Below are positions 3,523 to 20,119 of a stretch of 20,425 nucleotides of DNA, piece by piece. The notes beneath the pieces were generated by a model. It worked only from the letters and a program-made list of their open reading frames with translations. It was not told the origin of the DNA and ran no database searches. Both the position numbers and the translations under genes were made by a program. The first letter of the stretch is position 1; each line of letters opens with the position of its first letter. Source of the DNA: Ruminococcus sp. (GTDB lineage Bacteria > Bacillota_A > Clostridia > Oscillospirales > Ruminococcaceae); contig NZ_JAIKXF010000111.1 of the NCBI RefSeq assembly GCF_024684275.1, positions 1 through 20,425 on the forward strand, in the 5' to 3' direction.

Positions 3523-5886
3523 ATGTCAGCACATAAAAACATAGACAGGATATGCATTATTATCACTGCCATTACTCTTGTTATAGCCTTTATCTTCTGC
3601 AATGACCAGGCTCTGGGCATAAAAACGACGGCTCATGCCATAGGCTATGAGGACCGCCTGTTCGACCGCTCAAAGGTGCATACCATTGACATAGTCATGA
3701 ACGACTGGGAGGGCTTCATAGAGGGCTGTGAGAGCGAGGAATACTCCGCCTGCAATCTTGTTATCGACGGCGAAGCTGTGAAAAATGTCGGTATCAGAGC
3801 AAAGGGCAATACTTCCCTCAGTTCCGTAAAGAATATGGACAGCAGCCGCTACAGCTTCAAGATAGAGTTCGACCAGTACGAAAACGGCAAAACATATCAT
3901 GGACTTGACAAGCTGTGCCTGAACAATATCATTCAGGACAACACCTACATGAAGGACTACCTTGCCTATACACTGATGAACGATTTCGGGGTTGATGCAC
4001 CTCTTTGCAGTTATGCCTATATCACGGTCAACGGTGAGGACTGGGGACTGTATCTTGCTGTTGAGGCTATTGAGGAGTCATTCCTTGAAAGAAACTACGG
4101 CAGCAATTACGGTGACCTGTACAAGCCGGACGCTATGGGTTTCGGCGGCGGACGCGGCAACGGAAAAGACTTTAGTATGGGGAATTTTATGAATAAAGAG
4201 AGCGAAGAAGATACAGAAAGCTCTGAAAAATCAAATGATAACAACAAGCAGTTCACTTCTCCCGATTTTGGCGGAGGAATGCCCGACTTTGGCAGTGAAA
4301 TGCCTGAATTCGGCGGCGATATGACGGATTTTGATCCCGAAAATATGCCCGATGACTTCGGTGATTTCGATCCCTCAAAGATGTTCGGCGAGAACGGCGA
4401 AAAGCCCGACTTCGGCGGCGGTCAGATGCCTGACATGAACGGAAAAGGAGGATTCGGCGGCGGCTTCGGTATGGGAAGCGACGATGTAAAGCTTAAATAT
4501 ACCGATGACGATATCGACAGCTATTCCAACATCTTCAATAACGCAAAAACTGCTGTCGATAAGGCAGATAAAAAGCGCCTTATCAGATCGCTGAAAGCTC
4601 TTTCAGAGCAGTCAGACCTTGAAAACACCGTTGATATCGAGGAAGTAATCCGCTACTTTGTAGTCCATGATTTCCTTGTAAACGGCGACAGCTATACAGG
4701 TCAGATGATACACAACTACTATCTCTATGAGAAAAATGGGCAGTTTTCCATGATACCGTGGGACTATAATCTTGCTTATGGTTCGTTTATGGGCGGAAAT
4801 GCTTCATCTTCTGTCAATTCTCCCATTGATACTCCTGTTTCAAACGGCATGAGCGACAGACCTATGATCGCTTGGATATTCGATAATGAGGAATACACCG
4901 AGCAGTATCATCAGCTTTTCAGCGATTTCCTTGACAGCGTGGATTTTGAAAAGCTTGTGGCAGATACCGCAGAGCTTATCGACAAGTACGTTGAGAAAGA
5001 TCCCACAAAATTCTGCACCTACGACGAGTTCAAAACAGGCGTTGAAGCTATCAGCAAGTTCTGCACTCTCCGTGCAGAAAGCGTCAGCGGACAGCTCGAC
5101 GGCACTATCCCGTCTACCACAGAGGGACAGAAAGAGGACAGCTCCGCCCTCGTTGACACAGACGGTCTGAACACCTCTGATATGGGCTCCATGGGCGGCG
5201 GAAAAGGCGGATTCGGCGGAGGTCAGAAGGGCGGTTTCGACAGAAATAACAGCTCAAAAAAGGCAGATACATCTGATACTTCAAAAAAAACTGATAATTC
5301 CGAGATAGTACAGACCTCAAATACTTCGTCTTTCTCCGTAAAGATGCTGAGCAATATCCAGCCACTTGCAAACGAGGACAGTTCAAGCAGCAGCGGCAAA
5401 CCTCAGCGTGGAAACGGCGAGAAGCCCGACTTTGGCGGTCAGCCGCCACAGGGATTCGGCGGCGATATGCCTGATGACTTAGATCCAAGCAATATGCCTG
5501 ATTTCGGCAGTCAGCCCCCACAGGGCTTTGACGGCGAAATGCCCGATGACTTTGATCCGAATAATATGCCCGACGGTGCTCCGTCTTTCGGAGATACCGA
5601 AAAAACAAGTGATGAAAACGCAAACAGCTCCGAAACAGAAAAGGTCACAGAGGCTGAGGCAAGCTCCGAAAACACAGAAAAGCCTGCTCCGAATGCTGAT
5701 GAAAACAGCAGTTCCGCTCCCCAAAATGAAAATAAGTCAAGAGGCGGCGAAAGACCTGATATGGGTGGATTTTCACCTATGGATGATAGCCCTCAACAGG
5801 ACAACACCACGGCATATATATTGCTTGGTGTATCTATGTTCGTTCTCTTGTTTGGTTTAGGATTTGCTCTGAAATTTAGGCGATAA
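3523..5886 (+). CDS. CotH kinase family surface protein with MPDFG-rich inserts
   Basis: A 787-aa CotH-family protein; Bacillus CotH is an atypical protein kinase of spore-coat proteins. An N-terminal hydrophobic helix (about 9-27) exports or anchors it. CotH signs are GIRAKGNTS (about 91-99), DWGLYLAVEAIEESF (about 171-185), the HDFLVNGDSYTG motif with Asp389 (likely catalytic) and MIPWDYN with Asp414 (likely metal-binding). Between the first and second halves of the kinase, about 205-325, is a low-complexity insert of Gly, Asp, Met, Pro and Phe repeats (MPDFG, GGGFG). A second such tract with Ser/Glu-rich linkers fills about 550-760. A C-terminal helix (about 763-783) followed by KFRR ends the chain; no LPXTG is present. 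It is the last gene of the VTC/DUF4956 operon and is followed by a terminator. Substrate unknown. Confidence 0.9.
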   Translation: MSAHKNIDRICIIITAITLVIAFIFCNDQALGIKTTAHAIGYEDRLFDRSKVHTIDIVMNDWEGFIEGCESEEYSACNLVIDGEAVKNVGIRAKGNTSLSSVKNMDSSRYSFKIEFDQYENGKTYHGLDKLCLNNIIQDNTYMKDYLAYTLMNDFGVDAPLCSYAYITVNGEDWGLYLAVEAIEESFLERNYGSNYGDLYKPDAMGFGGGRGNGKDFSMGNFMNKESEEDTESSEKSNDNNKQFTSPDFGGGMPDFGSEMPEFGGDMTDFDPENMPDDFGDFDPSKMFGENGEKPDFGGGQMPDMNGKGGFGGGFGMGSDDVKLKYTDDDIDSYSNIFNNAKTAVDKADKKRLIRSLKALSEQSDLENTVDIEEVIRYFVVHDFLVNGDSYTGQMIHNYYLYEKNGQFSMIPWDYNLAYGSFMGGNASSSVNSPIDTPVSNGMSDRPMIAWIFDNEEYTEQYHQLFSDFLDSVDFEKLVADTAELIDKYVEKDPTKFCTYDEFKTGVEAISKFCTLRAESVSGQLDGTIPSTTEGQKEDSSALVDTDGLNTSDMGSMGGGKGGFGGGQKGGFDRNNSSKKADTSDTSKKTDNSEIVQTSNTSSFSVKMLSNIQPLANEDSSSSSGKPQRGNGEKPDFGGQPPQGFGGDMPDDLDPSNMPDFGSQPPQGFDGEMPDDFDPNNMPDGAPSFGDTEKTSDENANSSETEKVTEAEASSENTEKPAPNADENSSSAPQNENKSRGGERPDMGGFSPMDDSPQQDNTTAYILLGVSMFVLLFGLGFALKFRR

Positions 5887-13201: not shown

Positions 13202-13277
13202 GCTGATGTGGCACAGTCGGTAGCGCAACGCCTTGGTAAGGCGTAGGTCGTCGGTTCAAGTCCGATCATCAGCTCCA
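13202..13277 (+). tRNA. tRNA-Thr (anticodon GGT), integration target
   Basis: 76-nt cloverleaf. The acceptor GCTGATG pairs with CATCAGC, the anticodon stem ACGCC with GGCGT, and the loop TTGGTAA carries GGT at 13235-13237. The T-arm is GTCGG/CCGAT and CCA is encoded (13275-13277). From 13233 onward the sequence is duplicated at 20075-20119. The 3' part present here was therefore supplied by the integrated element, and the gene stays functional. Confidence 0.97.
13233..13277 (+). repeat. attL: 45-bp direct repeat in tRNA-Thr
   Basis: Identical over 45 bp to 20075-20119. It starts at the first base of the anticodon loop (TTGGTAAGG) and ends at the CCA. Bases before and after differ between the copies. 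Confidence 0.95.
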
Positions 13278-13288
13278 AAACAAATACC

Positions 13289-13334
13289 AATAAATAGGCG
13301 TTTCTTCTATATGAGGAAACGCTTATTTATTTTA
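13289..13334 (+). terminator. Element-borne terminator for tRNA-Thr
   Basis: A 16-bp stem (13289-13304 with 13316-13331, one G-U) followed by a T-rich tract, 11 nt after the tRNA. It lies inside the element and replaces the chromosomal terminator that was displaced to 20142. Confidence 0.8.
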
Positions 13335-13347
13335 CTAAAAATCAAAG

Positions 13348-13368
13348 TGTCCTTAATCTGTCCTTATT
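13348..13368 (+). repeat. Left arm-type repeats TGTCCTTAWT
   Basis: Two direct copies, at 13348-13357 (TGTCCTTAAT) and 13359-13368 (TGTCCTTATT), one helical turn apart (11 bp). The same decamer occurs as a pair near the right end in the same orientation. Probable binding sites for the integrase N-terminal arm domain. Confidence 0.7.
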
Positions 13369-13383
13369 ACGATAAAAAGCTAT

Positions 13384-13418
13384 AAAAAACAGCGGCAAAA
13401 GAATACATCATTGCCGCT
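13384..13418 (-). terminator. Terminator of the element's leftward operon
   Basis: On the minus strand an 8-bp AGCGGCAA/TTGCCGCT stem (13418-13411 with 13398-13391) is followed by GTTTTTT, 14 nt after the stop of the last leftward gene. Confidence 0.85.
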
Positions 13419-13432
13419 TTTATTTGTGATAT

Positions 13433-13636
13433 TTATTTGTTTAAACGTCGTTTTCTTTCGGCTCTCTGTCCGCATATATAACCATACTTGTATAAACTAA
13501 TAAGCAAAGTATTTTCATCTGTACCCTTTTCCCGTTCTGAATTTACATATTTGCCTAACAGCTTTAATAATGTTTGTTCGGGTAATACTTGATTATTTAA
13601 TAGTGCTTCCAGTTCTTCAACTGTTTCTACTTTCAT
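13433..13636 (-). CDS. Small hypothetical protein of the element
   Basis: A 67-aa protein of unknown function. The N-terminal half is acidic (VETVEELEALLNN) and probably helical; the end is strongly basic (RAERKRRLNK). AAGGAG stands about 10 nt before the ATG. It has its own probable promoter about 55 nt upstream and a terminator right after it, so it can be expressed independently of the replication genes. It is the last gene before the attachment site, a place where satellites often carry accessory genes. No homologue is recognised. Confidence 0.75.
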   Translation of the reverse strand: MKVETVEELEALLNNQVLPEQTLLKLLGKYVNSEREKGTDENTLLISLYKYGYICGQRAERKRRLNK

Positions 13637-13689
13637 GTAGTTTCAGCTCCTTTGCAGTGATCGCAGCTTTCGCAGCGGCTTCAATGCTT

Positions 13690-13718
13690 ATTATACATTG
13701 TTTCTTTGTTCACGTCTA
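13690..13718 (-). promoter_or_regulatory. Probable promoter of the 67-aa gene
   Basis: On the minus strand TAGACG (13718-13713), a 17-nt spacer and TATAAT (13695-13690). Confidence 0.55.
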
Positions 13719-13920
13719 TTGATATTATCAATAATATTCCGGAAACATCAAAATATCAGTATCCGTAAATTCAGTTTATTCAGTGATTAGCAATTATGTT
13801 TCCACCAAATTTAACTGTTTTTTACGGTTGTATTTTTTTGTATTGCCTAGTTACCGTTGCTTTGTGCAGTATTACCCATTAAATTTAACCGGTTAAAAAA
13901 TGGAATTTTTGGAACAATTA
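13719..13920. other. A+T-rich non-coding stretch with a palindrome
   Basis: No supported gene. It contains the 12-bp palindrome TTAACCGGTTAA at 13885-13896, extended by CCATT (13876-13880) and AATGG (13899-13903). This may be a protein-binding site or the hairpin ending the gene at 13921. No T-run follows it on the minus strand. Confidence 0.5.
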
Positions 13921-14226
13921 TTATTCCTGTTTTTCTCTCAGTGATTTCAAATACTCTCTTAACGGTGATGTTTCGCCGCTGCCTGTTGTTGCAACCAATA
14001 ATTTGATACATTCTTTGTATGCTGATAAACATTTGTGATACGCATAAAAGGCAGGTGATACCTTGATTTGTGCTTTGTTTTTCGGATTTTCTTTGTAAAA
14101 ATCTTTCTGTTTCAGTATATCAAGCTGATCTTCAAGCGTTATCATTTCTTCAATTAATTGCGCTGTTTTTACATCGGTTGCAAGCTTTCTTAGCTTATTA
14201 TTTCTTTCTTCTCGATTAGTTATCAT
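13921..14226 (-). CDS. Phage-type small protein, possible terminase small subunit (P27-like)
   Basis: A 101-aa protein. The start at 14226 is chosen because AAAGGA lies 7 nt before it; an upstream in-frame ATG at 14316 would add residues from a structured leader and lacks a ribosome site. It has a helical N-terminal half (AQLIEEMITLEDQLDILKQ). The segment KVSPAFYAYHKCLSAYKECIKLL followed by SPLREYLKSL resembles the C-terminal part of P27-family small terminase subunits, which recognise phage packaging sites. The resemblance is weak and judged by eye. If right, it would let the element redirect helper-phage packaging. Otherwise it is an unassigned phage-related protein. Confidence 0.7.
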   Translation of the reverse strand: MITNREERNNKLRKLATDVKTAQLIEEMITLEDQLDILKQKDFYKENPKNKAQIKVSPAFYAYHKCLSAYKECIKLLVATTGSGETSPLREYLKSLREKQE

Positions 14227-14298
14227 TATTTCAAATCCTTTCTGTTTATTTATAATGATTTCTGAAAATTTGGAATTTACTTTAGCTGTGCGAAAGAA

Positions 14299-14351
14299 TG
14301 AACAGCTCCTGTCCAATCCTCAGAAAGCCCACACTGTTCACTTTAGGGGGG
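14299..14351 (-). other. Structured leader with inverted repeat and G/C run
   Basis: TGAACAG (14299-14305) and CTGTTCA (14334-14340) form a 7-bp inverted repeat around a G+C-richer 28-nt loop. They are flanked by a run of seven Gs (14346-14352 on plus, Cs in the leftward transcript). The segment stands out in composition from the A+T-rich element and lies in the leader of the terminase-like gene. Function unknown. Confidence 0.4.
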
Positions 14352-14368
14352 GACTACCTCAATGCCGA

Positions 14369-14671
14369 TTAGTAATCAGTGTTTTCATAATGCTTTTCTT
14401 TTACTTTAATTTCTTGTTTATGTACAGCTATTTCCTGTTGCTTCACGCTTTCACCGTTCAACTCTATAATAACTTGTAGAGCTTTTATATCACCGTTCTT
14501 TGCAGCTTCAAAAAGGTTGTCAATGATCTCCATAACATCATTTGGATTTTCTGTTATGTGTCGTTTAAGAGCTGCTTTAAACCCTCGGACAGCTCCCGAT
14601 TTTTTACCGCCTTTTGCCTGTTCCTCGACAGTTAATTTATGTGCTTGTGGTTTCAGGTTCTTATCATTCAT
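14369..14671 (-). CDS. Small phage-type protein with KGGKKSG motif
   Basis: A 100-aa protein of unknown function. The N-terminus (EEQAKGGKKSGAVRGFKAALKRHI) matches a type of small protein often met near the packaging genes of Firmicutes prophages. A helical segment (DVMEIIDNLFEAAKNGDIKALQVIIELNGES) follows, then a charged tail (KQEIKVKEKHYENTDY). AGGTGA lies about 7 nt before the ATG. It sits just after the iteron-like array and before the terminase-like gene, which suggests a packaging or regulatory role, but no function is established. Confidence 0.8.
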   Translation of the reverse strand: MNDKNLKPQAHKLTVEEQAKGGKKSGAVRGFKAALKRHITENPNDVMEIIDNLFEAAKNGDIKALQVIIELNGESVKQQEIAVHKQEIKVKEKHYENTDY

Positions 14672-14694
14672 ATTATTTCACCTACATTTTTATT

Positions 14695-14786
14695 TGTCAC
14701 TAATGTCACTATTGTCACTGTCACCTTTACGATGATTATCATTGATAATTTATTAGCGTGACGGGTGACAGGTGACAAAAATGACA
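14695..14786. repeat. Iteron-like array, candidate replication origin
   Basis: TGTCAC-type repeats start at 14695, 14704, 14713 and 14719 (plus orientation). The inverse GTGACA-type starts at 14758, 14764, 14771 and about 14781. They flank an A+T-rich centre containing the palindrome ATGATTATCAT. Inverted iteron clusters around an A+T-rich core just downstream of the helicase gene is the layout of SaPI origins. The inner copies could also fold as a 13-bp hairpin in RNA. Confidence 0.65.
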
Positions 14787-14789
14787 ATA

Positions 14790-16280
14790 TTAAGCAAGCG
14801 GATTGATATAACATATTGTAGACGGTTGACCGATAGTATTTCTGATAGTTTCGCATTTCAGATAATACATATCTTCAAGTAAATTTATTGCTTCATTAAA
14901 CGCTTCTTTATTGTGTATACCTTTGCAATTGCGCTTTAGTTCACGTAAAGTTATTTCATTGTATTGACGTTCTTTAATTCTACGCAAAATATACTTAGCG
15001 TTTTTTGTGGTTTCGTCGTCACCTGCTCCGCCGTCAAATGCTTTTAAAGCCATATTTTCAGCCCATAACCCAATTTGTACGGCGTTAATAGCTGTATCAC
15101 CGTTAATAGGTTCATCGGCTGTATGCTCACAAAGATGTAATAAACCGGCTATTTTTAAAACCTTTCCAAAATGCTTGGAAGCATATTCTTTTAATGTATT
15201 GTTTTCAAATATTCCGCCGCTTCGCATTTTACATTGTAACATATCATAATAATCATGTAAGATATTATAGCTTTCTTTATCATGTGTAAGCTTAACAGGT
15301 TTATCGGCTTTGGGGATTCGTAGTAAACGTGTTATTAATTCATCATAAGCCTGTTGTATATTATACGAAATATCCTTGCTTGTAAAGTTCTGATTACCGG
15401 CTTTTCCAATAGGAAACGCAAATAAAAACCTCTGCATTAATCCACGCCCCATAAATTGCGGATTATTCATAGTTCTTAATAGCTGTTGCGGTTGTGTCAT
15501 TATGCCAATTGTAAGATATGGAGCATTAAGCGTTATAGCAGTATCATTATTACGCCTAAATATAGTATGAGATGAACCGTCATAAGCTTTTAAGAATAAG
15601 TTTATATTGCCTTGACCGTTAGTGTAAAGCCCTGATATAACATCAAATACGCTGCCCTCATCGTCCATAACAGCCATACAGCCATTTTGTTTATCCATTT
15701 CAGCCGCCAATGCTTCGGGGGTTGTATCAGAACAGATAAGCCGCATTTCGTGAACAGGTTTAAGCTCACATAGTTCATCTGTAAGCTGTTCGACACGTTC
15801 AAAACTTGTTTTATTCATTGCTGCTTGTTTTTGATGTTCAAGAAATTTACGTTTGCTTTTGTATCTTTCGATTTCTTTTTGATGTAATATATTGTATTGC
15901 TGTTGATATTCTGTGACAGGTTTTATAAGTGCTTTGTATACACCTGATTTTCTTTCACCCGGCTGTGCTATCGTCAGTGTATAAATGTTAATGCTTTCAG
16001 TATGAGCATTTGCAGGATATGAAACAACTGCTTTACCTTGCAAACATAATGATAATACTGATAACATCGGCAATGCTACCATAGAGCTATCAACCTGTAC
16101 AAAGTCACATACAGCTTTCAAGTAATCGGAAAGTGTTTTCGGCAGACTATTAACAGGGAAAGCCTGATATTGTACCTCTTTTTCAAATGGTTCGGGCTGT
16201 TCCCATTCATTTTTTATTATTTCTGCTGTTGATTCTTCTAAAAACTCTGTTTCAGTTTCCGATATATTTTCTGTATTCAT
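14790..16280 (-). CDS. DUF3987 (YfjI-like) helicase/primase-associated ATPase
   Basis: A 496-aa cytoplasmic ATPase of the DUF3987 family, common in the replication modules of satellites and integrative elements. The Walker A region is AQPGERKSG (105-113), followed by a coiled, basic linker (about 125-175). The Walker B is CMAVMDDEG with Asp206/Asp207/Glu208, and the second half is helicase-like (MGRGLMQRFLFAFP near 275-290). The start is ambiguous. AAAGGAGG is 14-15 nt before the ATG at 16280, while an in-frame TTG at 16286 has better spacing and a TTG at 16295 is too close. All choices overlap the primase gene end (stop at 16252), so translation is coupled. Likely role: origin unwinding with the adjacent primase fragment at the array just downstream. 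Confidence 0.87.
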   Translation of the reverse strand: MNTENISETETEFLEESTAEIIKNEWEQPEPFEKEVQYQAFPVNSLPKTLSDYLKAVCDFVQVDSSMVALPMLSVLSLCLQGKAVVSYPANAHTESINIYTLTIAQPGERKSGVYKALIKPVTEYQQQYNILHQKEIERYKSKRKFLEHQKQAAMNKTSFERVEQLTDELCELKPVHEMRLICSDTTPEALAAEMDKQNGCMAVMDDEGSVFDVISGLYTNGQGNINLFLKAYDGSSHTIFRRNNDTAITLNAPYLTIGIMTQPQQLLRTMNNPQFMGRGLMQRFLFAFPIGKAGNQNFTSKDISYNIQQAYDELITRLLRIPKADKPVKLTHDKESYNILHDYYDMLQCKMRSGGIFENNTLKEYASKHFGKVLKIAGLLHLCEHTADEPINGDTAINAVQIGLWAENMALKAFDGGAGDDETTKNAKYILRRIKERQYNEITLRELKRNCKGIHNKEAFNEAINLLEDMYYLKCETIRNTIGQPSTICYINPLA

Positions 16281-16848
16281 CGGCAATTCTTTCAACCTCC
16301 TTTCGGTGATCTATAAAAAATCTTTTCCGGATTTCATCACTGCCGCCAATGAATTTATTACAATAAAAATCTATTATTGGTAATTCATTACAAGCTTTCA
16401 CCCATAATATATATGGTACATCATCGGCGGTTTTCGGTGTAAATTCTTCATACCATAATAATAAGAGCTTATAATAATTATTCAGTACACGAAAAGCCCA
16501 TTTCTGCCAATCCTCGAAATAACTATATATTTGAGACTTGGAAACAGTTTTTTCTTTCGGCTTAATGTCAGTATTTTTGCCAATATTGAGAGAAAGGGCA
16601 AAATCCGTGTTTATCTTCTTTGCTGCTTCAATTGCTGACAGTTCAAACAGCTTCGACACAAAGGTTATAACGTCGCCGCCGATGTGACAGCCAAAGCAAT
16701 AAAAACTTTGATCGTACAGCCTCATAGACGGCGTTTTTTCGTTATGGAACGGACAGCATATATAATCATGCCTATTAGTGTTAAAGCCGTATTCTGCCGC
16801 AATAGAACGCATATCAACACTGTTTTTTAGTTCATCGAATACATTCAT
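16252..16848 (-). CDS. CHC2 zinc-finger primase domain protein
   Basis: A 198-aa protein whose first 80 residues form a DnaG-type CHC2 zinc-binding domain: CPFHNEKTPSMR and CFGCHIGGDVI, with ligands Cys32, His35, Cys51 and Cys54. No TOPRIM catalytic domain follows. The C-terminal part (about 105-198) is helical, Trp/Tyr-rich and unassigned. It is therefore a primase fragment by family standards, possibly acting as the DNA-binding partner of a host primase or of the DUF3987 protein. The ATG overlaps the previous stop as ATGA, and its own 3' end overlaps the DUF3987 start, so it belongs to a tightly coupled replication operon. Confidence 0.88.
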   Translation of the reverse strand: MNVFDELKNSVDMRSIAAEYGFNTNRHDYICCPFHNEKTPSMRLYDQSFYCFGCHIGGDVITFVSKLFELSAIEAAKKINTDFALSLNIGKNTDIKPKEKTVSKSQIYSYFEDWQKWAFRVLNNYYKLLLLWYEEFTPKTADDVPYILWVKACNELPIIDFYCNKFIGGSDEIRKRFFIDHRKEVERIADEYRKYIGN

Positions 16849-17150
16849 TTTTTATACTTCTTCAAATAAGCCTCGGCAGGTAATAAAGATTCGATTATAC
16901 TATTAATAACCTTTTTAGCCGTTCTTACATATTCAATTATTTCTTCAATTGTTTCGGGAATAAAATAACCGCCGTTTCTGCCGCCAAAGCCGCAAATAAT
17001 AACGCCTTTTAGCCTTGCAGCTCTGATACACCTTTGTATATCACGTCTATCAAGGTGTAATAATGTTTGAAATTCTCGGTTTGATATAGCATTATTTTTG
17101 CCATGTGGGATATAATCCAGAATATTGAAAGGCTTTTTTGTATTCTTCAT
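16845..17150 (-). CDS. Winged-helix-like replication-module protein
   Basis: A 101-aa protein with a DNA-binding look: NILDYIPHGKNNAISNREFQTLLHLDRRDIQRCIRAARLKGVIICG, then a GGYFIP beta-wing and a helical tail (EEIIEYVRTAKKVINSIIESLLP). Similar small proteins sit before primase or replication genes in Firmicutes phages. The exact role (initiator helper or regulator) is unknown. GAGGGG precedes the ATG, and both ends overlap neighbouring genes by 4 nt (ATGA). Confidence 0.8.
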   Translation of the reverse strand: MKNTKKPFNILDYIPHGKNNAISNREFQTLLHLDRRDIQRCIRAARLKGVIICGFGGRNGGYFIPETIEEIIEYVRTAKKVINSIIESLLPAEAYLKKYKK

Positions 17151-17416
17151 ATATTAACCCCTCTTATTTTGGCAGGTATTGGCTGAATACCCCTGTCAGT
17201 AAATTCAGTTTTTTCGGTTAGTGTTGCATTATTGAAGTAATCAATAACACTTTGCTGATTTATCAGGATTTTATTGCCGGCACGAATAGCCTTGACTTTT
17301 CCTGTCAATGCAAGCTGCCGCGCATGATGTACAGCTATTCCGAAATGTACAGCGGTTTCTTTTACTCCGCGCATATCAGGTATATTATCGCTGTATGTTA
17401 TGTTATTATCATTCAT
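17147..17416 (-). CDS. Excisionase-like helix-turn-helix protein
   Basis: An 89-aa protein with a MerR/excisionase-type HTH_17 fold: MRGVKETAVHFGIAVHHARQLALTGKVKAIRAGNKILINQQSVIDYFN (about 14-62). Such proteins bend attachment-site DNA to direct excision (Xis) or activate transcription. A GCGAGGT ribosome site precedes the ATG. As the second gene of the leftward operon, facing away from the integrase, it is the best candidate for the recombination directionality factor. It overlaps the next gene by 4 nt. A probable antisense RNA promoter lies just upstream of its start on the opposite strand. Confidence 0.83.
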   Translation of the reverse strand: MNDNNITYSDNIPDMRGVKETAVHFGIAVHHARQLALTGKVKAIRAGNKILINQQSVIDYFNNATLTEKTEFTDRGIQPIPAKIRGVNI

Positions 17417-17434
17417 TTTAATAACCTCGCTTTC

Positions 17435-17463
17435 TTGACCTACTCCGCAAACTATGTTATAAT
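17435..17463 (+). promoter_or_regulatory. Promoter of an antisense small RNA
   Basis: TTGACC (17435-17440), exactly 17 nt, TATAAT (17458-17463) on the plus strand, in the gap between two minus-strand genes. No plus-strand gene follows, only a terminator. Confidence 0.7.
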
Positions 17464-17469
17464 TGGAGC

Positions 17470-17550
17470 AGGCAGATATAATATTTGTGGTGAATAGGAT
17501 ATGTGCTTAACGTCTTACCGCTTCGGCGGCAGGACGTTTTTTTTATTTTT
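17470..17550 (+). ncRNA. Candidate ~80-nt small RNA antisense to the leftward operon
   Basis: It starts about 7 nt after a near-consensus promoter and ends in a strong terminator (17509-17550). No open frame of credible length or ribosome site lies within it. It is complementary to the leftward mRNA in the gap before the excisionase-like gene and to the last codons of the 62-aa regulator gene. It may control the replication/excision operon, as antisense or immunity RNAs do in plasmids and satellites; that is inference. Confidence 0.6.
17509..17550 (+). terminator. UUCG-loop terminator of the small RNA
   Basis: The stem is AACGTC/GACGTT (17509-17514 with 17533-17538) plus CCGC/GCGG (17518-17521 with 17526-17529), with a 3-nt internal loop, a TTCG tetraloop, then eight Ts and a further T-rich tract. 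The minus strand has no T-run after the hairpin, so it works only rightward. Confidence 0.85.
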
Positions 17551-17731
17551 CTTGCTGTTCTGCAAGTTTTGTGATGATACGGCAAAAATCTGCTTTTTCA
17601 TCTTTTGAAAGTTCAAAGCGTAACCTGCGAAATACTGTGTTTTCGTGAACACCCATAACGGCGGCAACAGCATAAACAGGTATGTGCTTTTCTTTCATTA
17701 AGTTTCTGATCTCAGGATTTGCAAGTTTCAT
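17543..17731 (-). CDS. Small helix-turn-helix regulator, first gene of the leftward operon
   Basis: A 62-aa DNA-binding protein: NLMKEKHIPVYAVAAVMGVHENTVFRRLRFELSKDEKADFCRIITKLAE. The helix-turn-helix is at about 17-40 and a type of Firmicutes mobile-element regulator with the same RxLRxELSxxEK phrase is common. AAGGAGTG lies 6 nt before the ATG. By position it corresponds to the early activator/regulator opposite the repressor in SaPI-like elements. Its stop codon lies in the T-run region of the antisense small RNA. Confidence 0.82.
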   Translation of the reverse strand: MKLANPEIRNLMKEKHIPVYAVAAVMGVHENTVFRRLRFELSKDEKADFCRIITKLAEQQEK

Positions 17732-17765
17732 ATTAACACTCCTTAAAATTATTTTGTGGTGGTAG

Positions 17766-17794
17766 TTGACAAATGATAATTGATGTGATATTAT
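17766..17794 (+). promoter_or_regulatory. Rightward promoter of repressor and integrase
   Basis: TTGACA (17766-17771), a 17-nt spacer and TATTAT (17789-17794). The expected start at about 17801 falls inside operator site 1. The leader to the repressor is about 127 nt and holds operators 2-4. Confidence 0.8.
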
Positions 17795-17796
17795 TA

Positions 17797-17910
17797 TTGT
17801 AGAACCACAACCACAATTTCTACATTAATCATATCACCGTTAAATTTAACTGTCAATATGTTTAAGTAAAGTGTAGAAATAATGAAGAATTATAGTAACC
17901 AATTCTACAA
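17797..17910. promoter_or_regulatory. Four operator copies (TTGTAGAA) in the lysogeny-type switch
   Basis: TTGTAGAA at 17797-17804, TTTCTACA at 17817-17824, TGTAGAAA at 17872-17879 and TTCTACAA at 17903-17910. Copies 1-2 and 3-4 form two inverted pairs with centres about 20 and 31 bp apart, i.e. about two and three helical turns. Sites 1 and 2 cover the predicted starts of the rightward and leftward promoters. Probable repressor binding sites. Confidence 0.7.
17828..17856 (-). promoter_or_regulatory. Leftward promoter of the replication operon
   Basis: On the minus strand TTGACA (17856-17851), a 17-nt spacer and TATGAT (17833-17828). The predicted start near 17821 lies in operator site 2. 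It faces the rightward promoter, so the two transcripts overlap. Confidence 0.82.
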
Positions 17911-17927
17911 TAATAGGAGCTGATATA

Positions 17928-18560
17928 ATGGCAAACAAACCACAGGTAAGTTTAAAGTTTATAAAAGGATATGGAAATAACTTTAAGAAACTACGTGAAG
18001 ATAAACAATTAACGCAAATACAGTTATCTAAATTGATTTTTGTTTCTGATAAGTCAATATCTCTTATTGAAAAGGAACAAAGAGAACCTACAATTGAACA
18101 GATAAATATTTATAGCGAATATTTTAAAGCTTCTTTAGACTACCTTACAGGCAGAACAACAATAGTCAATCCAACTTCTCAAATAATAAGTAATTTTACA
18201 GGGCTTTCAGATGATTCAATTTTACAAATAGAACGTACAAAAAATGATAGCGAAACTTCAATAAAAATACTAAATGAAATTATATGTAATGAAAACTTTG
18301 AATACATTATTTTTCTATTAAAAGAGCTGTATCAGCTTCATAAAAATGCATTAGACCTTAATTCACCCGAATATATAGATTCTGCCAAAGAATGTGAAGC
18401 TTTCCAAAAAGAGCATGAAGAATTTTTCAAAAAGTATCCGTGTAGTTTCCGTTTTCAATCTATATTTACAGAAGAAATAAACATCACAAATCAAATTGAT
18501 TACAATGCAAAAGAGCTTATAAAGAAGCTAATACAACTTGTTTATGATGATAAAAGCTAA
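17928..18560 (+). CDS. XRE-family repressor (Stl/CI-like)
   Basis: A 210-aa protein with an N-terminal HTH_3/XRE DNA-binding domain (about 12-66: [49 protein letters not shown]). It is followed by a 140-aa helical, acidic C-terminal part of unknown fold. There is no Ser/Lys LexA-type autoprotease motif, so RecA-driven self-cleavage is not expected. Induction could come from a helper-phage protein binding the C-terminal part, as with SaPI Stl; this is inference. AGGAG lies 8 nt before the ATG. It is followed by the integrase in the same direction and faces the leftward regulator across the operator region. Confidence 0.88.
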
Positions 18561-18577
18561 TAAAAGGGGGCTTTAAT

Positions 18578-19837
18578 ATGGCTGATATAAAAGAAAATCG
18601 TAACGCAGACGGAAAGTTAATATCGTTTAGAATCCGTGTAGGTGACGGATACGGCATTGACGGCAAACAACGCCGTAAAACTATGACTTGGAAAGTTCCT
18701 CACGGTATGACCGATAAGCAAGCTATAAAAGCCGCGCAAACTGCCGCCATTGAATTTGAAGAACAGGTAAAAAACGGGCTTGCAGGTTCACAAAGAGGCT
18801 TGAAGTTATGCGACTTTATACCGATGTATCTTGAAGTAAAAAAGGGCTCATTGTCTCCACGAATCCACGCAGAATATGAACGATCAATCAATGATTTTAT
18901 TTTACCTGCTTTAGGGCATTTCAAGCTTTCAGAGCTTAGACCTACTCACATTCAAGAATTTGTCAATCAGCTTCAAAATGTACCCAAACGCAGACGAACA
19001 GGCGAAATTGACGGCGACGGCAATAATAGATTAGCACCTGCGACAATTCGTCGCCGTTTAACTATTCTTCAAAGTATCCTTGCAACAGCGGTCAAACTCG
19101 ACATTATATATGATAATCCTGCTGATTCAAAAAGACTCACACTCCCAAAAGTTCCTACACCTAAAATTGAGATATTCACAAAACAGGAAATGGAAACAAT
19201 GTTATCTTGTCTTGACGATGAAAGCTTACAGTTTAAAACGCTTATTTGGATTGCAGTTTGTAGCGGCTGCCGTGCAGGTGAAATAACAGGTTTGAAGTTC
19301 TCGGACTTTGATTATGATAACTGTCAAATGACCGTTGAACGATCTATATACAAGCTTAAAAATCAGCCGATAGCAGTTAAACCGCCGAAAGACTACGAAA
19401 CACGGACAATAAAGCTGCCGAAAGAAGTTATAGACCTTGTTAAGCTCTTACAAGTAGAGAAACGCCGCGAACAATTTACACTTGGTACTGCTTGGAAAGG
19501 TGATAACTGGCTGTTCACACAAATTGACGGTTCTGTTATGCACCCTCACACAGCAGGCTCACAATTCAATAATTTTCTTAAAAAGCATGATCTGCCACAT
19601 AAAAAATTTCATAGTCTCCGCCATAGCTCCGCAACGTTCCTATTATTCGGCGGCTTGGATATTAAAGCAGTTCAAAACAGGCTCGGTCACGCTGATATAT
19701 CAACTACACAAAAGTATCTGCACGTAGTTCAAGAGGCAGACGAACAGGCAGCAAATATATTACAAGGAATGTTTATAACACACAAAAAGAACTCAGACGA
19801 ACAGACAGAAGAAAACAATAAACAGCATATCGGATAA
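18578..19837 (+). CDS. Tyrosine site-specific integrase
   Basis: A 419-aa phage-type integrase that should recombine the element at the tRNA-Thr site. The N-terminal arm-binding region is at about 1-60, the SAM-like core-binding domain at about 65-175 ([25 protein letters not shown]), and the catalytic domain after that. Arg232 (CSGCRAGE), His345 and Arg348 (FHSLRH), His371 (RLGHAD) and the nucleophile Tyr380 (TTQKYLHV) are all present, so it looks active. AAAAGGGGG precedes the ATG 17 nt after the repressor stop, so both are probably on one transcript. Its gene ends about 240 bp from attR, with a terminator right after. Confidence 0.96.
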
Positions 19838-19840
19838 TAC

Positions 19841-19877
19841 AAAAGAGGCTCTTCGTTCTTGGAAAGCCTCTTTTATT
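19841..19877 (+). terminator. Terminator of the repressor-integrase transcript
   Basis: A 10-bp stem AAAAGAGGCT/AGCCTCTTTT (19841-19850 with 19865-19874) ending in Ts, just after the integrase stop. Confidence 0.87.
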
Positions 19878-19884
19878 ATAAATC

Positions 19885-19959
19885 TGTCCTTATTATTTTT
19901 ATATTTGCCTATATAGCGTTGAAAACAGGTGAAAAAAGTGTCCTTATTCTGTCCTTATT
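19885..19959 (+). repeat. Right arm-type repeats TGTCCTTATT
   Basis: Exact copies at 19885-19894, 19939-19948 and 19950-19959. The last two are 11 bp apart, as in the left pair at 13348, and in the same orientation. The pair ends 115 bp before the attR core. A second element, AAAACAGGTKAAAA, occurs at 19922-19935 and 19966-19979. Probable integrase arm or excisionase sites. Nothing else is seen in 19960-20074. Confidence 0.7.
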
Positions 19960-20074
19960 GCTGTAAAAACAGGTTAAAATCTACTAAAAACCATTTGTTG
20001 ACAATGGCTTAAATACCTCTATATATAGCCAAATACAAGAAGTTGCAAAAATCTGTTAAAAGCTTTAATTTTCA

Positions 20075-20119
20075 TTGGTAAGGCGTAGGTCGTCGGTTCA
20101 AGTCCGATCATCAGCTCCA
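20075..20119 (+). repeat. attR: displaced 3' end of tRNA-Thr
   Basis: Exact 45-bp copy of 13233-13277. It lacks the 5' half of the tRNA and has no promoter, so it is a remnant of the original gene. The crossover lies within this block. Confidence 0.95.

Follow-up and report, generated by a model that had tools for sequence, protein, structure and literature searches.

Most known phage satellites come from cocci, Enterobacterales and vibrios. The phage-inducible chromosomal islands (PICIs) of Gram-positive bacteria, among them the Staphylococcus aureus pathogenicity islands (SaPIs), are described in passages of PMC6092414 as having an origin of replication immediately 3' of rep, composed of two sets of iterons around an AT-rich region and sometimes followed by terS, the gene of the small terminase subunit (TerS). 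For the phage-inducible chromosomal minimalist islands (PICMIs) of Vibrionaceae, passages of PMC10803314 give a primase modelled by DUF3987 or DUF5906 and report the packaging of one such island as a concatemer. The element considered here occupies positions 13233 to 20119 of a stretch of Ruminococcus sp. DNA (NCBI RefSeq assembly GCF_024684275.1, contig NZ_JAIKXF010000111.1, positions 1 to 20,425 of the forward strand); the whole stretch of 20,425 nucleotides is referred to as the window. The presence of a PICI/SaPI-like element in tRNA-Thr was confirmed, and the analysis supports a PICI-like reading, in which the element is quite probably a compact phage satellite working like a Gram-positive PICI.

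The limits of the element were set by a tRNA gene and by two copies of an attachment (att) core:
13202..13277, + strand, tRNA-Thr (GGT), the integration target, called by ARAGORN and matched by the Rfam tRNA model at 65.3 bits
13233..13277, + strand, attL core, 45 bp, identical to attR, from the repeat search
20075..20119, + strand, attR core, 45 bp, from the repeat search

The exact 45-bp direct repeat corresponds to the 3' end of tRNA-Thr(GGT), so the element is bounded by two identical copies of the tRNA end with a spacing of 6842 bp, and the GC content changes from approximately 0.50 outside the element to 0.30-0.40 inside. A search of related genomes for an empty tRNA-Thr site, as suggested by an initial annotation made from the sequence alone, was successful in two cases: in Ruminococcus genome G031 a single att copy joins sequences that match the left flank at 95% over 321 bp and, with the att counted in, the right flank at 89% over 175 bp, and in G018 the corresponding matches are 90% over 322 bp and 90% over 143 bp. 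The window flanks match genomes of the genus of G008. The tRNA call, the exact repeat, the empty site, the att spacing and the flank matches together bear out what that annotation had proposed, namely an insertion of about 6.8 kb in tRNA-Thr of a Ruminococcus-like host. A 38-mer of the att (at most 2 mismatches) is present in 95 of 125 genomes of the genus and occurs twice on one contig, in the same orientation, in 7 of these 95, where it is associated with satellites (G005, G008, G032, G065) or other islands (G019, G072, G075). Four IMG/VR contigs, between 17.7 and 35.9 kb long, also contain the exact 38-mer. Three of them (L123, L124, L126) have a different integrase 35 bp from the att and no tRNA in the locus, and tail and lysis-like genes were recognised by eye beside that integrase in L123 and L126; these different integrases at the exact att indicate that temperate phages use the same site.

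Two of the other islands at this tRNA-Thr site are recorded here as separate observations. One is a 25-kb island (L050-L051, G019:C1:2966445-2991731) with an integrase 84% identical to that of the window and, by eye, a group II intron reverse transcriptase, Cas9 and CRISPR repeats. The other is a 4.2-kb att-bounded island (L048, G075:C2:69993-74265) in which no integrase was seen and which contains, by eye, an RtcB-like gene and a DNA methylase gene.

Ten genes were counted within the element, and all ten open reading frames (ORFs) are uninterrupted along their full length and densely packed. Seven of them form the control and replication module (HTH, helix-turn-helix):
18578..19837, + strand, tyrosine integrase, 419 aa, Phage_integrase PF00589 (1.9e-23)
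17928..18560, + strand, Cro/CI-type repressor, 210 aa, HTH_3 (7.3e-8), divergent from the operon
17543..17731, - strand, 62-aa HTH protein, 76% identical in siblings L046/L047
17147..17416, - strand, 89-aa HTH_17 excisionase-like protein (HTH_17 at 1.3e-4, under the Pfam cut-off)
16845..17150, - strand, 101-aa phrog_2113 protein (6e-15), present in several siblings
16252..16848, - strand, CHC2 zinc-finger primase-type protein, 198 aa, PF01807 (1e-17)
14790..16295, - strand, DUF3987 replication protein (helicase/primase class), PF13148 (1.2e-84) and phrog_2373 (1.6e-73)

The PICI/SaPI-like gene order described in the initial annotation was recovered, with an integrase and repressor on one strand facing HTH, xis, CHC2, DUF3987, the origin and small proteins. 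Its divergent coupled operon holds from the excisionase-like gene to DUF3987, where successive genes overlap by 4, 4 and 44 nt, but the 62-aa gene stands apart, 126 nt upstream. The HTH, CHC2 and DUF3987 assignments were upheld, the excisionase-like one only below the Pfam threshold, and the 101-aa protein that had been called winged-helix belongs to phrog_2113, with no winged helix seen and a single weak HTH_17 match at 0.025. Structural and transfer genes had been stated to be absent, and family scans of the ten predicted proteins indeed returned no structural, lysis, relaxase or transfer family. The DUF3987 protein is 501 aa long from TTG or 496 aa from ATG. Viral contigs searched with its single sequence gave no match, and a scan with its alignment gave 5 loci at 24-29% identity. 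A protein 98% identical to it (P0001) is encoded on a metagenome contig of 6814 bp.

An iteron array follows immediately on the DUF3987 stop codon:
14695..14777, strand not assigned, replication origin candidate, with four TGTCAC (+) and two GTGACA in opposed sets around an AT-rich stretch

Six of the eight TGTCAC/GTGACA copies of the element fall within these 83 bp. When 6-mers containing all four letters were counted in 90-bp spans, no such 6-mer reached five copies in any of 300 dinucleotide-shuffled versions of the element, compared with six in the element itself, and the iteron-like array noted initially was thereby substantiated. A second test, run on the window and 15 relatives, compared exact 7-mer counts in the first 300 bp 3' of the DUF3987 stop with those of 200 shuffles (L021, having less than 200 bp downstream, was removed, and L001, L005, L011, L012, L013 and L022-L037 were outside the set). 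In 7 of the 15 relatives no shuffle (0/200) was as high, each having its own repeat letters. By its sequence layout, 14695-14777 is a candidate origin.

Beyond the origin candidate, two small genes occupy the terminase slot:
13921..14226, - strand, 101-aa protein, TerS candidate A, matching phrog_1066 weakly (0.0031), with relatives directly upstream of the large terminase subunit (TerL)
14369..14671, - strand, 100-aa protein, TerS candidate B, matching phrog_2412 (4.2e-7), with TerL after or fused to its relatives

A profile search with candidate A gave 3977 homologues at E<=1e-6. Its relatives in prophages of G043 and G122 show the order HNH, relative, TerL (HNH and TerL of G043 by Pfam), whereas relatives of candidate B are immediately followed by a different kind of TerL in G117, G110, G087 and G064 (Terminase_6N by Pfam in G117 and G064, by eye in G110 and G087). 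In IMG/VR, the gene directly downstream of the candidate A relative belongs to a terminase large subunit family in 16 of 17 loci, and for candidate B the TerL is the next, the second next or the same ORF in 14 of 15, among the matches listed, although near-copy loci (L080/L081, L083/L084/L085, L087/L089, L094/L095, L097/L098, L101/L102) make 17 and 15 overstatements of the number of independent cases. Within the candidate B set, TerL is the immediate next gene in L103, the second next in L106 and the fused ORF itself in L105 and L107. In the latter two a phrog_2412-type relative and the large terminase form a single fused protein, an arrangement that speaks for phrog_2412 as a small-terminase family. 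The G122 prophage has relatives of both proteins, one of candidate A beside TerL and a 107-aa relative of candidate B about 2.5 kb upstream. AlphaFold models, built from 14 and 17 sequences, reached a predicted local distance difference test score (pLDDT) of 81.7 and a predicted template modelling score (pTM) of 0.65 for candidate A, and a pLDDT of 76.4 and a pTM of 0.43 for candidate B. Neither model had a PDB match at E<=0.001, and neither protein matched named phages by tblastn. The adjacency to TerL in viral loci agrees with the initial description of these proteins as phage-type, and both are regarded as terminase-slot proteins and as TerS candidates by position, and in the case of candidate B also by fusion. 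These findings would suggest a function for phrog_1066 and phrog_2412, both of which are listed as unknown in PHROGs.

A stronger claim, that the element has two working small terminases from unrelated systems (HNH-TerS-TerL of the phrog_9 kind and phrog_2412/Terminase_6N), is hence packageable by two unrelated phage families and belongs to a group that swaps helpers via the terminase cassette, is tentative and, in our judgment, rather doubtful. The rival explanation that survives best retains a satellite and treats the terminase-slot proteins as decoys that poison helper packaging, with a cos/pac mimic allowing the TerS of the helper to package the element DNA. In its favor, candidate B is without the C-terminal tail found in 11 of 16 aligned relatives, as is the 107-aa relative in the G122 prophage, which lies away from TerL. 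Candidate A, however, retains near its C terminus an SPL(R) motif that is invariant in 14 aligned sequences (R in 13), and a search for shared 13-mers found no cos-like sequence. This decoy reading is considered unlikely.

Related elements were located with the window integrase, which gave 25 matches at E<=1e-60 in 23 of the 125 genus genomes. The DNA around all 25 places, some of which are at contig ends, was read, and a TerS-type gene was found within 9.5 kb of 9 of them. Four are of the Mu gp27 type (L007, L010, L132 and L137; PF11985 at 7.5e-15 and phrog_426 at 1.8e-24 in L010), one is of the 100-aa type (L131, phrog_2412 at 3.9e-27), and two are of an HTH type (L141 and L142, phrog_2538 at 4e-6 and 1.6e-4). 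The remaining two, in L046 and L047, were assigned to the HTH type (about 3e-23) by a three-sequence model made from L141, L142 and L017, which themselves match by construction. DUF3987 lies near 7 of the 25 integrases, the copy in L132 being a fragment only. Ten elements are att-bounded (the window element, L007, L010, L017, L046, L047, L131, L137, L143 and L145), with a spacing of 4.8-9.7 kb and a TerS-type gene inside 8 of the 10, the window element included. In L017, L143 and L145 the att repeats are either short or broken, L007 and L010 have the same att core as the window (47 bp), and L017, which is not among the 25 places, was found through DUF3987 and has an integrase of 24% identity. 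TerL models detected none inside the nine other att-bounded elements, and the family scans detected none in the window. The same core order, which the initial annotation had proposed to look for in related genomes, recurs in the siblings at the same or other tRNA sites. Conjugation genes were not noticed in the stretches read around the siblings, no dedicated search having been made.

An integrase tree was built from 23 of the 25 places (L147 and L008, with the integrase in pieces, were left out, and L142 is partial) together with L014, L127 and the window. The window integrase groups with L050, L133, L046 and L047 (100/100). One integrase clade has 101-aa (phrog_1066-like), phrog_2412, HTH-type and Mu gp27-type genes, and the HTH-type and the Mu-type each need two changes on the tree, which fits an exchange of packaging genes. 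Of the four genomes with Mu-type siblings, G008 and G005 were checked, and both also have a phage late region (L151, L152) with the order 112-aa protein, TerS, one or two small genes, TerL and portal, and no transposase gene was present in the stretches of L151 and L152 that were read. The different TerS types among the siblings and the late regions in two genomes with Mu-type siblings support a satellite life with packaging-gene exchange.

A different kind of Mu-related element was encountered at L154 (G093:C73, 56-7241). It is 7.2 kb long, has 19-bp perfect inverted ends starting TG, and contains a Mu-type transposase (phrog_310, 3e-99), a MuB-like protein (phrog_296, 1.8e-56), Mor, a major head protein (phrog_422, 4.6e-61), a relative of the 112-aa protein and a Mu-type TerS; the models gave no TerL, and no portal or tail gene was seen. 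Its end sequence (at most 2 mismatches) occurs in 8 of the 125 genomes, and no matching target duplication was seen at the ends of L154. This element looks like a transposing Mu satellite. The end of a close copy (94% over 2.2 kb) is present in L150 (G008:C94, 6782-8944); the same genome has the late region L151, and the head proteins of L151 and L154 belong to one family.

Several results weigh against the PICI-like reading. Profile searches of PDB sequences with both small proteins gave nothing convincing, the 101-aa family is without a Pfam family, and no kinship of this family to HK97 TerS was detectable (no alignment). In view of these missing Pfam, PDB and HK97 TerS links, the case for TerS identity is made by gene position, and by fusion as well for the 100-aa family. 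Single-sequence searches placed the 101-aa type in 2 and the 100-aa type in 6 of the 125 genus genomes, one of the six matching at only 0.009; a profile later added one genome (G014). Between the element and packaging regions from 13 phages, 7 shared 13-mers were counted where about 8.6 are expected, and no cos/pac mimic was seen. Among the four att-sharing virus records and L127, none matches the 101-aa profile and only L127 matches the 100-aa profile, weakly (1.3e-4). In the siblings, the HTH type is weak as a TerS in PHROGs (4e-6 to 2e-4), the gene of L046/L047 was matched solely by the three-sequence model, and at 16 of the 25 integrase places no recognised TerS is nearby. As for the origin, the 7-mer test gave no significant result in the window, whose count was reached in 24 of 200 shuffles, 8 of the 15 relatives, including the Mu-type siblings L007 and L010, missed 0/200, and among the seven positive relatives six have repeats on both strands and L004 on a single strand; an array after rep is thus common, but not seen in every relative.

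The genomic context of two relatives also counts against it. The initial annotation had named homologues consistently lying inside larger conjugative elements or complete prophages as a refuting case, and the PICI-like reading withstood the checks that were made, with reservations. The att-bounded siblings measure 4.8-9.7 kb. A scan of viral contigs with the integrase gave one close relative, L127 (and two more at 24%), in which the sibling core lies directly beside an apparent prophage integrase with a tRNA-like att between them (by eye). In L141 (G069:C38, 1658-10561), the genes int, xis and phrog_2113 are followed by the HTH-type TerS, TerL and a tape-measure gene (phrog_6900, 8.7e-59). No portal or capsid gene was seen, and L141 may be a satellite with an additional role in setting tail length, or part of a prophage.

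A second rival is an integrative and mobilizable or cis-mobilizable element (IME/CIME), that is, a relaxase-less island which would use int/xis for excision, replicate in circular form and travel with a conjugative element by means of an oriT in cis. A DUF3987 relative does occur in L001 (MT836114.1) with an ORF read by eye as a Mob/Pre relaxase, and the same tRNA-Thr site has att-bounded islands in which no phage structural genes were seen (4.2 kb in G075; 25 kb with a Cas9-like gene in G019). Against this, the ten proteins include no relaxase or transfer family, the two terminase-slot genes and the PICI-like origin have no known role in conjugation, and siblings have Mor and a Mu-type TerS. 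Such an island is improbable, and a conjugative element or IME was rejected as the best reading since no relaxase is present among the ten proteins. The weakest rival, a decayed prophage that lost its structural genes and is kept by chance, has in its favor phage-like integrase, repressor, small HTH and terminase-slot genes and sibling integrases with TerL and a tape-measure gene (G069) or an apparent tape-measure start (G076), but is improbable given ten intact and tightly packed ORFs, a compact order that recurs in att-bounded siblings of 4.8-9.7 kb with no TerL by the models, and 7 of 15 relatives with their own repeats after rep, and a plain prophage remnant was likewise rejected as the best reading because the genes are open and tightly packed and their order is recurrent.

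Three further features of the element were recorded:
13298..13322, + strand, hairpin just inside attL, likely terminator, from the sequence
13344..13378, + strand, repeat related to 19935-19969 (89%) and to 19881-19895
13433..13636, - strand, 67-aa protein, no family

The hairpin is likely a terminator given by the element to tRNA-Thr; comparable hairpins lie 3' of the att in several genus genomes, some of them without a related integrase at E<=1e-60. The repeats at 13344-13378, 19935-19969 and 19881-19895 are possible integrase arm sites. Outside the element, a 787-aa ORF of the window (3523-5886), resembling CotH-type proteins by eye, contains tandem repeats of 21 bp (4261-4323) and 72 bp (5434-5570).

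The mechanism proposed for a PICI-like satellite was drawn up by analogy with PICIs. A helper phage protein would release the repressor, and the element would excise and then replicate from its own origin. The TerS-like proteins would join the helper's large terminase and steer element DNA into helper heads. Full-size heads filled with multi-unit concatemers, and not small capsids, would be expected because no capsid-remodelling gene was recognised and the unit is 6.8 kb. The most likely helper would be a siphophage with an HNH-TerS-TerL module like that of the G122 prophage. A search of open-access papers on Ruminococcus and phage satellites gave a single one, on faecal transplants, and none that also concerned PICIs. 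If the reading is true, a compact satellite group in a fibre-degrading gut and rumen genus would provide a clean system for the study of how satellites change helpers, for which sibling satellites with different terminase-slot genes would be the basis.

Among known elements, L001 (MT836114.1) has a related DUF3987 protein (31% identity) and differs in its ORF read by eye as a Mob-type relaxase, of which the window element has none. The Pasteurella PICI PmCI172 has a Mu-type helper in passages of PMC6092414, as would apply to siblings L007, L010, L132 and L137, whereas the window element is without Mu-type genes. PICMIs, as characterized in passages of PMC10803314, are likewise small, with int, an AlpA/HTH_17-type regulator and a DUF3987-type primase and without a capsid-remodelling gene; of these traits, DUF3987 and int are present in the window element and HTH_17 is under the Pfam cut-off (1.3e-4). 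In contrast, the same passages define PICMIs at fis and give no terS homologue in PICMI115, while the window element occupies tRNA-Thr and combines a divergent order of the SaPI type with iterons and terminase-slot genes. The differences from Gram-positive PICIs are that the element has half their typical size (6.8 kb compared with about 12-15 kb), a DUF3987 replication protein and two different terminase-slot genes, an integrase clade of its own (a single named phage record at E<=1e-40, with 27% identity), and an att that is also used by temperate phages, whereas the att of PICIs is never prophage-occupied. The shared att site, the size and the contexts of L127 and L141 are the reasons for which the element was named a PICI-like satellite rather than a PICI. 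With the Gram-positive PICIs and SaPIs, as these are described in passages of PMC6092414, it shares the divergent order of int-repressor against xis-pri-rep-ori-(terS), the layout, by sequence, of the origin 3' of rep, a terminase-slot gene beyond that origin, and a set of ten proteins without structural or lytic genes.

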